A stretch of DNA of 14,503 bases from Candidatus Aenigmatarchaeota archaeon (lineage in GTDB: Archaea > Aenigmatarchaeota > Aenigmatarchaeia > CG10238-14), in contig JANXDN010000003.1 in assembly GCA_025058005.1 (NCBI GenBank), positions 1-14,503 on the forward strand, written 5' to 3'. The notes under the pieces were generated by a model. That model worked only from the letters and a program-made list of their open reading frames with translations. It was not told the origin of the DNA and ran no database searches. How positions within the stretch are numbered: the first letter of the stretch is position 1; each line of letters starts with the position of its first letter. A program made the translations under genes and the position numbers. Below are positions 4,409 to 6,949 of the stretch, in pieces.

Positions 4409-5137
4409 TCATATCAATTTCGCCAAAGACTTTATGTTTTTATTTGCAATATACTCATATATTTGCGTGCTTCTTATATCCTTGTGACCAAGCAAATACT
4501 TAACATATCTTATGTCTGCCCCATTTTCAAGCAAGTGAACTGCAAACGTATGCCTTAATGTATAAGGTGAAACGCGTTTATGCACTCTAGCTCTCCTCGC
4601 AGCTCTAGAAACTATTTGTTGTATAGTTCTTTCATCATATATTTTTCCCTCACAAGAAACAAAAACATAATTGCTAATTCTATTTAGTTTGCTCAACGCT
4701 TCTTTTAGTTTTGGGTGAAGAAACAAAACTCTTTGATTTCTACCGTTTATTGTTATTAAATCGTTTTCAAAATCTATCTCACTCCATTTTAAAAATCTCG
4801 CCTCTTGCAGTCTCAAACCAGCAAAATATAATGCACATAAAATAGCATAGTGTGTTTTGTTGTTTGTTAGATTTATCATTCTTTCAATTTCTGATTTTGA
4901 CAATATTACAGGTATTTTGTATTTTTCCTCAAAAACACTTATGTCTTCTGTCGGCATTTCTAAAATGTTTTCGGTAAAAAATTTTAGCACCAAATATGTC
5001 ACTTTTTTGTTCGATGCTTCAGAAATAAATTCTCTTATACTCTTGCCAGATTCTAAATATTTCTTTATTATTTCAATATATTTTTTGTATTTTTTTGATG
5101 CACCTCTCATTTTTATTTCATCAAAAAGTTTTTTCAT
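4409..5137 (-). CDS. xerA: XerA-like tyrosine recombinase
   Basis: 242 residues from ATG 5137; in-frame ATGs at 5167 and 5194 would add 10 or 19 residues. The start at 5137 fits because the N-terminal DNA-clamp domain (KKLFDEIKMRGASKKYKKYI) begins there. The catalytic domain shows box I Arg in YFAGLRLQEARFLKWSEID, box II TLRHTFAVHLLENGADIRYV, YLLGHKD with the second His, and the nucleophile Tyr in STQIYEYIA. XerA resolves chromosome dimers at dif in archaea. Two usual catalytic positions differ. The first His of HxxR is Tyr (PYTLRH), and the beta-hairpin Lys of GKGxKxR is not evident (NGRNQRVLFL). There is no integrase arm-binding domain and no phage context, so a housekeeping role is more likely than an integrase. 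The stop is TGA. Confidence 0.88.
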   Translation of the reverse strand: MKKLFDEIKMRGASKKYKKYIEIIKKYLESGKSIREFISEASNKKVTYLVLKFFTENILEMPTEDISVFEEKYKIPVILSKSEIERMINLTNNKTHYAILCALYFAGLRLQEARFLKWSEIDFENDLITINGRNQRVLFLHPKLKEALSKLNRISNYVFVSCEGKIYDERTIQQIVSRAARRARVHKRVSPYTLRHTFAVHLLENGADIRYVKYLLGHKDIRSTQIYEYIANKNIKSLAKLI

Positions 5138-5248
5138 TATAATATATTCCGACGTAAGGCCGGACATTAAAATATATTTTAGCAAAATTTTCATATATAA
5201 ACCAATATATACAAAATTGTGAATAATTGAATTTTTCGCGAATATCAT

Positions 5249-5454: not shown

Positions 5455-5661
5455 ATGCCTGTAAAAAAAGAATTGTTAGAAATATTGGCTTGTCCTCTAT
5501 GCAAAGGGGATGTGAGCGAAAAAGGTATGTTTATTGTTTGTGAGAAATGCAAAAAAGCCTATCCAGTCTTAGACGACAAGATACCGGATATGCTAATAGA
5601 AGATGCATGGCCGTTAAAGAAAGCTGAAAGATCAGGTTTTAAACATAAAATAAAGTTTTAG
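5455..5661 (+). CDS. Trm112-like zinc protein (Trm112/YcaR family)
   Basis: 68 residues. The start MPVKKELLEILACPLCKGDV gives the first CxxC (13 and 16), CEKC (29-32) the second, and YPVLDDKIPDML (36-47) the typical family ending. In archaea and eukaryotes Trm112 is the obligate small partner that activates and solubilises several methyltransferases acting on tRNA, rRNA and release factor. The zinc site is complete. The C-terminal tail (EDAWPLKKAERSGFKHKIKF) is basic and longer than in the minimal bacterial YcaR form. It converges on TYW1 with a 4-base stop overlap (5658-5661); both neighbours concern tRNA or translation, although they are on opposite strands. The stop is TAG. Confidence 0.85.
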   Translation: MPVKKELLEILACPLCKGDVSEKGMFIVCEKCKKAYPVLDDKIPDMLIEDAWPLKKAERSGFKHKIKF

Positions 5662-6551
5662 TTAAACACCAGCACACCGTCTTCATCAAAATCTTTTCCA
5701 ATACTTTTTAAATTCTGTCGCCATACATCTTCATCTCTTACCATTATCACAACCCTGCTTACTAAATCCTTTGCTTTAATTATATAGCCCGTGAATTTTT
5801 GCAATTCCTTAGCAAAATTCTCCAGTTCTTCTAATGTCGGCATGTTCTCTCTTTTTAATCTAAGCTTAGATTCGCCTAAATGAGAATAACCTTTTAACTC
5901 GACAAATTGAGGTTGAGACATGTTTATCAATTTTGCAAAACCTTCAGGATCCTTCATGTTCAAATCCTTAACTAAAGTCATTCTAAAAACAGTTCTTGCC
6001 TCTTTAAATTCTTGCATTAGACTCAAACTTGTATTCACTCTTTCCCACTCATCGATTAAAGAAGAATTGGTCACCATTTTGTAATCGCTCTTATTAGTCG
6101 CATAAACGCTTATGTAAAGGTTTGTTGGTTCCGCCTTTTTTTCTATCATCTCATAAAGTTTATTTGGCATCGTTCCATTAGTTACTAGAAATGCTGTCAT
6201 ACCCCTCAATTTTATTTCTTTTATTAACTCCGCTATATAAGGATATAAAGTAGGCTCGCCATCCAAACTAATAGCTACGTGCATAGGTTTTTTAGCCTCC
6301 TCCCACAGATGTTTTGGTGTATATGGGCTACCCCCAAATCCAGATAGTAGTTTTATTTGAGCATCTATTATTTCTGGAATAATCTCTTGCGGCAAGTCCC
6401 ATTTATTTTGTGCTTTAAATCTGTCCGGACCAAATGTTCTCCAACAAAACTTACATGAGAATGGACAAAAGTCCAAAGTAGGGGTCATTTGAATGCATCT
6501 ATGCGATCTTATACCATACAATACCTTGTAACAATTTCTTCTATTTCTCAA
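5658..6551 (-). CDS. taw1: 4-demethylwyosine synthase TYW1/Taw1 (radical SAM), region after an in-frame TAG
   Basis: The open frame from TTG 6551 gives 297 residues. TYW1 condenses pyruvate with N1-methyl-G37 of tRNA-Phe to make the tricyclic wyosine base. The radical-SAM motif CxxxCxxC is at 29, 33, 36 (FCPFSCKFCWRTFGPDR), preceded by HRCIQMTPTLD. Further family blocks are PMHVAISLDGEPTLYPY, AFLVTNGTMP, PTNLYISVYA and FVELKGYSHLGESKLRLKRE. Archaeal TYW1 normally has about 40 more N-terminal residues holding the first cysteine of a second 4Fe-4S cluster. Those residues are encoded in the same frame at 6558-6662 but are cut off by TAG at 6555-6557. Cysteines 7 and 19 of this frame match the other two auxiliary-cluster ligands. 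The TTG has no good ribosome site. The TAA stop overlaps the Trm112 gene by 4 bases. Confidence 0.9.
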   Translation of the reverse strand: MRNRRNCYKVLYGIRSHRCIQMTPTLDFCPFSCKFCWRTFGPDRFKAQNKWDLPQEIIPEIIDAQIKLLSGFGGSPYTPKHLWEEAKKPMHVAISLDGEPTLYPYIAELIKEIKLRGMTAFLVTNGTMPNKLYEMIEKKAEPTNLYISVYATNKSDYKMVTNSSLIDEWERVNTSLSLMQEFKEARTVFRMTLVKDLNMKDPEGFAKLINMSQPQFVELKGYSHLGESKLRLKRENMPTLEELENFAKELQKFTGYIIKAKDLVSRVVIMVRDEDVWRQNLKSIGKDFDEDGVLVFN

Positions 6552-6554
6552 GAC

Positions 6555-6662
6555 CTATTTCGTCCATCTACAAATCTCGATAGCTGTATGCAAATTTTTC
6601 CCGACAATTCTATATCCAGCCTTTTTATATTTTTTTAGCCTTTCCTCCGTAAGTATAGCCAT
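6555..6662 (-). other. taw1: N-terminal segment of TYW1 ending in an in-frame TAG
   Basis: From ATG 6662 the frame reads MAILTEERLKKYKKAGYRIV then GKNLHTAIEICRWTK, then TAG, then VLRNRRNCYK without any shift. It lines up without gaps against the Methanocaldococcus TYW1 N-terminus as I remember it (HTAVKLCGWVRKKMLEDK then NCYK). The first cluster cysteine (31 here) is 13 residues before the next (44), the same spacing as Cys26 to Cys39 there. The TAG stands where that protein has a lysine. TTTAAATTT centred about 25 bases upstream places a leaderless start at this ATG. Read as one frame the protein would be about 334 residues, normal for the family. Confidence 0.75.
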
Positions 6663-6681: not shown

Positions 6682-6690
6682 AAATTTAAA
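6682..6690. promoter_or_regulatory. Shared symmetric TATA element between TYW1 and tRNA-Ser
   Basis: AAATTTAAA is near-symmetric. It lies about 25 bases from ATG 6662 on the minus strand and about 33 bases from the tRNA-Ser first base on the plus strand, the expected distance for both. A second A/T stretch, TTATATTTTA at 6701-6710, is too close to the tRNA to be its TATA box. Confidence 0.45.
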
Positions 6691-6718: not shown

Positions 6719-6865
6719 GCCAAGGTGGCAGAACCAGGTAATGCACCGGACTTGAGTCGGTTCCGATGTGGAAGATGGCTTGACCATGATCTATGATTAA
6801 AAGGAGGTGAACCGAAGGACATCCGGCGGGCTATGCCCTTCAGGGTTCAAATCCCTGCCTTGGCG
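6719..6865 (+). tRNA. tRNA-Ser(UGA) with 64-base intron
   Basis: Acceptor GCCAAGG (6719-6725) pairs with CCTTGGC (6858-6864). The D arm is GCAG...TGC, and the anticodon stem CCGGA (6746-6750) pairs with TCCGG (6822-6826). The anticodon is TGA (6753-6755). The long variable arm GGGC-TAT-GCCC (6828-6838) makes it a type II tRNA. The T arm is CAGGG-TTCAAAT-CCCTG. The discriminator is G at 6865, as in archaeal serine tRNAs; leucine would have A. CCA is not encoded. The intron sits at the canonical 37/38 site; the mature tRNA is 83 bases before CCA. A T-run (CTTTTC) follows as a likely terminator. Confidence 0.93.
6757..6820 (+). other. Intron of tRNA-Ser(UGA)
   Basis: Between G37 (6756) and A38 (6821). 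Ends TCGGTTC (6757-6763) and GAACCGA (6809-6815) form a 7-base-pair helix. The three-base bulges AG-T and AC-A at the junctions, separated by a short central helix of CTTG against AAGG (imperfect, with a G-U and a G-A), give a relaxed bulge-helix-bulge for the splicing endonuclease. An inner hairpin ATGG-CTTGA-CCAT lies at 6775-6787. It also contains AAGGAGGTGA, a perfect Shine-Dalgarno core, at 6801-6810. I find no convincing C/D box pair. Confidence 0.85.
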
Positions 6866-6949
6866 CTTTTCAGATAAAAATACAAGTATTTTCAATTTTT
6901 GCACATTTTGGCAAATAATTTAGCAAAAAAATTTCGCAAGATTTTTCTT

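Follow-up and report, generated by a model that had tools for sequence, protein, structure and literature searches.

Does an in-frame TAG near the start of an archaeal TYW1 gene indicate that the stop codon is read as an amino acid, that translation restarts behind it to give a shorter enzyme, or only that the gene, or its assembled sequence, carries a premature stop? The question is raised by a locus on the minus strand of the window (the whole stretch of 14,503 nucleotides analysed here), with the following features:

5658..6662, minus strand: reading frame of TYW1 (4-demethylwyosine synthase), with a single internal TAG, ending at TAA 5660-5658.
6555..6557, minus strand: the TAG lying in frame, as codon 36 of TYW1.
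6558..6662, minus strand: TYW1 codons 1-35, containing the auxiliary-cluster cysteine Cys31 (codon 6572-6570).
5658..6551, minus strand: ORF of 297 amino acids opening at TTG 6551, which a restart would be expected to yield; it has no Cys31.
6682..6690, minus strand: TATA-like TTTAAATTT (CTTTAAATTT), about 24 bases 5' of the ATG, present in all four congeneric loci, that of the window included.

The preliminary description had proposed that the TAG splits an otherwise intact TYW1 gene, and our results agree with it. On the minus strand the ATG occupies 6662-6660, the TAG 6557-6555 and the TTG 6551-6549, and the TAG is the only internal stop in the frame from 6662 to 5658. The read-through product (334 residues, with X at the TAG) contains the Radical_SAM and Wyosine_form domains and scores 356.1 bits against TIGR03972, over the curated cut-off of 317.95. 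Three solved TYW1 structures (PDB 2yx0, 2z2u and 6djt) match it over most of its length, and the frame and the homology run on across the TAG as described, with the match to 2yx0 covering residues 7-311 (5.5e-77) and the alignment with three congeners residues 1-321, without gap or shift. No other TYW1 match occurs in the window's assembly (G000), which has 511,437 bases in 119 contigs and is 74% complete. TYW1 is convergent with a Trm112-like gene and their stop codons overlap at window positions 5658-5661 (TAA at 5660-5658 on the minus strand, TAG at 5659-5661 on the plus strand). A tyrosine recombinase is encoded two genes from TYW1 (window 4409-5248, minus strand; Phage_integrase, 104.6 bits) and could, we assume, be a chromosomal Xer-type enzyme.

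The part of the frame before the TAG belongs to the gene as well. A start at ATG 6662, also proposed earlier, is common to the three congeners (80, 76 and 76% identical), and the TATA-like element upstream is a putative promoter. Codons 1-35 encode the same residue as in congener G001 at 30 of 35 positions, with base differences of 4/2/18 at codon positions 1/2/3; since these are mostly at third positions, the homology before the TAG is not due to chance. The window gene resembles known TYW1/Taw1 proteins in its full-length homology, its Wyosine_form domain, its N-terminal auxiliary cysteines and its CX3CX2C radical-SAM motif (C66, C70 and C73, cysteine in 119/119 homologues among the matches listed), but differs from them by the TAG that separates the first auxiliary-cluster cysteine from the second. 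All three of these cysteines are in frame, C31 lying 5' of the TAG and C44 and C56 3' of it, so that they are not joined in one polypeptide. The first two are 13 positions apart, as had been claimed, and the second spacing is 11 residues in the window and its congeners versus 12 in the available part of a review (PMC5352715).

We then turn to the relatives. TYW1 was searched in 97 genomes, the window's own included, and 75 gave a match, some of the weakest of which probably represent radical-SAM proteins of other kinds. Codon 36 was inspected in 37 of these 75 genomes, 30 of them fetched as loci and 7 more because of reported stops, while two extra stretches came from genomes already included. 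Only the window has a stop at this codon; none was seen in the other 36 genomes read, out of 74 others with a match, so a stop kept at the same place, as in conserved programmed recoding, was not found among them. For 12 other genomes the search had returned TYW1 matches containing stops, and alignment placed none of these stops inside the gene (12/12), as ten have no stop and two (G083 and G047) have one at residue 311, which is the gene end. Two further stop-bearing matches, a fragment (G012:C24) and a 29%-identical match (G015:C57), stood outside this alignment check. In the three congeners codon 36 is TCT (Ser).

A broader set was formed by the 120 proteins listed out of 1,699 matches, minus the window's own; 118 of these 119 homologues cover codon 36, and being predicted proteins they are incapable of showing a stop. 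Among the covering homologues listed, the residue is Ser in 105, Glu in 5, Lys in 3, Thr in 2, Ala in 2 and Arg in 1, and Cys31 is present in 118/118. The TAG had been said to fall on a lysine position, which holds for Methanocaldococcus (MJ0257, 2z2u), but the near family has serine there. The window's own protein is the only one of the 120 listed with an identity above 80%, and the cluster of its 297-amino-acid protein has, as listed, 3 member sequences from 1 contig. No TYW1 match was obtained in 22/97 genomes of the class, or in 9/39 of those at least 90% complete, and this latter figure suggests that loss of TYW1 can be tolerated.

Whether a stop is recoded is decided by a survey of other genes, and in-frame stops were sought by comparing the ORFs of congener G001 (709,851 bases) with the window's genome, of which 61 contigs were used (298,184 of 511,437 bases, 58%). 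A first pass in one direction returned 83 stops (12 TAG, 40 TGA and 31 TAA) and was swamped by spurious antisense ORFs. The filtered survey, which keeps non-overlapping longest ORFs, at least 50% identity and stops at least 12 columns from the alignment end, left 207 matched ORFs, 53,273 aligned residues and six in-frame stops. Besides that of TYW1, these comprise one stop just ahead of where the gene for a protein beginning MKRRLDTNTIR is inferred to start, and four (in three ORFs) that fall on the antisense strand of a gene. Thus no second genuine in-frame stop, and no frameshift-like break, was found among the 207 ORFs in this 58% of the assembly. The reverse comparison (184 G000 ORFs against G001) gave a raw filtered count of 19 stops (11 TGA, 6 TAA and 2 TAG) and 2 frameshift-like breaks, and most of these stops look like antisense readings. 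The 147 genes with homology reaching their last six residues end in TAG in 24 cases, TAA in 76 and TGA in 47, and TAG also terminates the Trm112-like, PAP2 and zinc-ribbon genes of the window, as had been pointed out. A reassignment of TAG was therefore rejected, in line with the earlier view that the code has not been reassigned as a whole: TAG serves as an ordinary terminator in this genome and has no second genuine internal case among the 207 ORFs.

Among the alternatives to a simple premature stop, amber suppression or readthrough, in which a suppressor tRNA or inefficient termination fills the TAG and full-length TYW1 is made, fares best and is still unlikely. Functional readthrough would also be expected to keep the frame and all 61 conserved columns on both sides of the TAG, as is found here, and about a quarter of the genome is absent from the assembly, so a suppressor tRNA could be missing from it. 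Against this, the absence of a stop in the 36 other genomes read and of a second genuine case among the 207 ORFs is joined by a lack of the expected machinery. The PylS C-terminal model gave a best score of 18.6 bits in G000 versus a cut-off of 178 (in the controls it passed the cut-off in 1/14 genomes), and the N-terminal model, for which Methanosarcina acetivorans was the only positive control, had no match in G000-G003. No CUA anticodon was called among the 24 tRNA-family matches of the 74%-complete assembly, 23 of which were named by ARAGORN with introns allowed. The base after the TAG is G, and a G directly after TAG does not favour readthrough. Amber decoding as a special feature of this gene, one of the options first raised, is accordingly not borne out.

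Among the anticodons called in the sampled parts of G000 (15 calls) and G001 (41 calls), none would read a stop codon. Four of the tRNA genes depend on our own reading of the sequence: L043, SeC(UCA) according to ARAGORN, is read here as Arg(UCG); L049 and L052 are read as Leu(UAA) and Leu(CAA), differing from ARAGORN; and L054, which received no ARAGORN name, is read as Pro(UGG). L051 (G000:C63:3534-3637) is a tRNA gene, tentatively Phe(GAA) by ARAGORN, whose intron lies within the anticodon stem or close to it.

The likeness of this locus to archaea that recode TAG for pyrrolysine in the manner of Methanosarcina is limited to an in-frame TAG in a conserved archaeal gene; here, neither PylS nor a CUA tRNA was seen, TAG terminates widely, and the group of genes with internal TAG and the rare TAG terminator that would accompany pyrrolysine recoding were not found in the part surveyed. 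That the lineage nevertheless has an amber-suppressor tRNA, lost in the gaps of the assembly, which decodes the TYW1 TAG is highly improbable. If true, a DPANN archaeon would naturally suppress an amber codon, and would do so in the gene of an enzyme with its own role in tuning translation; the literature searched on DPANN with pyrrolysine or stop recoding yielded nothing on this case.

A restart is distinctly improbable. It would require termination at the TAG, reinitiation at TTG 6551 and a 297-residue enzyme that is active either in the absence of Cys31 or in combination with the 35-residue peptide carrying it. The TTG is the second codon after the TAG and in frame with it, and the ORF that it opens still has the radical-SAM motif as well as two of the auxiliary cysteines. 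However, the frames of the three congeners run uninterrupted from their ATG, and the refuting case named in the preliminary description, relatives whose TYW1 starts at the TTG, was not encountered among them. There is no ribosome-binding site at a useful distance from the TTG, the sole short match (AGGT) ending one base before it. Such a restart would cost the enzyme a cluster ligand, as had been recognized, since Cys31 lies upstream of the TAG. The auxiliary-cluster motif is given as CysX12CysX12Cys, with cysteines absolutely required for activity, in the available part of PMC5352715, and mutation of conserved cysteines abolishes the activity of yeast Tyw1 according to the part of PMC8153317 available. 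With Cys31 missing and the cluster cysteines required, the 297-residue product would be expected to be inactive. The TTG was likewise rejected as the true start of the gene, given the ATG start of the congeners and the conservation of Cys31 upstream of it in all covering homologues among the matches listed.

An ancient split, with the gene now decaying as a pseudogene, is scarcely credible: TYW1 is patchily absent in the class, but the frame has no frameshift or second stop, none of 61 conserved columns is changed, and differences from G001 after the TAG (50/26/119 at codon positions 1/2/3) are third-position heavy. No further disabling change of the sort expected in an established pseudogene was found in the gene. 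The 61 columns are those conserved in at least 97% of the listed homologues, 83/119 of which are likewise unchanged. With G022 as outgroup, unique amino-acid changes number 22 in G000 and 15 in G001, which is no clear acceleration. Higher ratios were obtained with G002 (44 versus 11) or G003 (46 versus 9) as third sequence; these counts were disregarded, as G000 appears to fall outside the branch formed by the other three, and the excess seems to reflect this position and not decay. Unchanged conserved columns and the lack of clear acceleration relative to G001 indicate that the stop is young or false, its recency being our inference.

Taken together, these results make it very probable that TYW1 is normal here apart from one premature stop, the TAG, without recoding, and that this stop is either a recent nonsense mutation, carried by the lineage or by the strain sampled, or a wrong consensus base. 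Both had been among the options first listed and they are the ones that remain; we consider them about equally likely. The TAG differs by two bases from the TCT of the congeners, so that one miscalled base would explain it only by way of an intermediate codon; TCG, which is one base from TAG, makes up 6.5% of serine codons. If the stop is real, ribosomes starting at ATG 6662 would make a 35-residue peptide, and a restart at TTG 6551 would at most add the 297-residue protein without Cys31, one of three ligands of the auxiliary [4Fe-4S] cluster. Without this ligand, 4-demethylwyosine would not be made.

Isolated nonsense alleles and base errors are a known kind of finding in metagenome-assembled genomes. 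The window fits them: its gene shows no decay beyond a single stop, which occurs on one contig and in none of the examined relatives, and no feature tested sets it apart from them. An isolated premature stop is an ordinary phenomenon, and as it stands this one matters little, being a lone stop in the assembly of one uncultured archaeon, in a gene that looks dispensable in its class (9/39 without a match). It does call for caution, as conserved residues and a frame that stays open before and after a stop do not alone indicate recoding.

The other parts of the wyosine pathway look ordinary. TYW1 is defined by its formation of imG-14 from m1G37 tRNA-Phe, and the window's genome has a tRNA-Phe with G37 (loop read by eye). 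PF02475 (Trm5) had no match in G000 and matched in each of 11 other genomes, and loss of Trm5 was considered as a sign of pathway loss. It was rejected, since contig C97 of G000 (L173, 9138-9279) ends inside a Trm5 gene with an intact start, and the family search missed the gene for this reason. A further neighbour of Trm5 had no match in G000, which is uninformative. TYW3 was found in none of the 12 genomes of the family (G000-G011), with Methanocaldococcus jannaschii and Sulfolobus acidocaldarius as positive controls.

The divergent neighbour of TYW1 was considered as an amber suppressor and rejected, as ARAGORN calls it tRNA-Ser(UGA) in G000-G003. It is of interest for its intron:

6719..6866, plus strand: tRNA-Ser(UGA), divergent neighbour of TYW1, with a 64-base intron at 6756-6819.

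The intron is nearly identical in the three congeners. A DNA match to the tRNA was found in 28/97 genomes, most matching its ends only; long matches spanning the intron occur in G005, G008 and G010, and in other families in G025, G012 and G013, so that conservation of the intron extends across genera. Nine genomes were aligned, the tenth, G025, being dropped since ARAGORN named its tRNA Thr. Both TGGCTTGAC and AAGGAGGTG are present in 9/9 aligned introns, TGATG in 8/9 (the exception is G000, with TGATTA) and CTGA in 7/9 (ATGA in G000 and CCGA in G012). The CTGA and TGATG motifs we take to be D'/C'-like boxes; Rfam gave only C/D-box matches at chance level on the intron (E 3.5 and 6.3). No case of a tRNA-intron guide RNA like this was found in the literature searched.

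Two stretches of the intron have complements in the 16S rRNA of congener G002, GATGGCTTGAC in GTCAAGCCATC and AAGGAGGTGA in the tail, TCACCTCCTT; the 16S of G000 itself was not found in its 74%-complete assembly. We take GTCAAGCCATC to be helix 44, at the decoding site, and TCACCTCCTT to be the anti-Shine-Dalgarno tail. The intron is thus a candidate, from its sequence, for a guide RNA that may be aimed at the 16S decoding site and the anti-Shine-Dalgarno tail. When the G002 intron was shuffled 2000 times with dinucleotides preserved, 7 shuffles gave two disjoint matches of at least 10, 121 gave one or more matches of 10, and 28 gave a match of at least 11.
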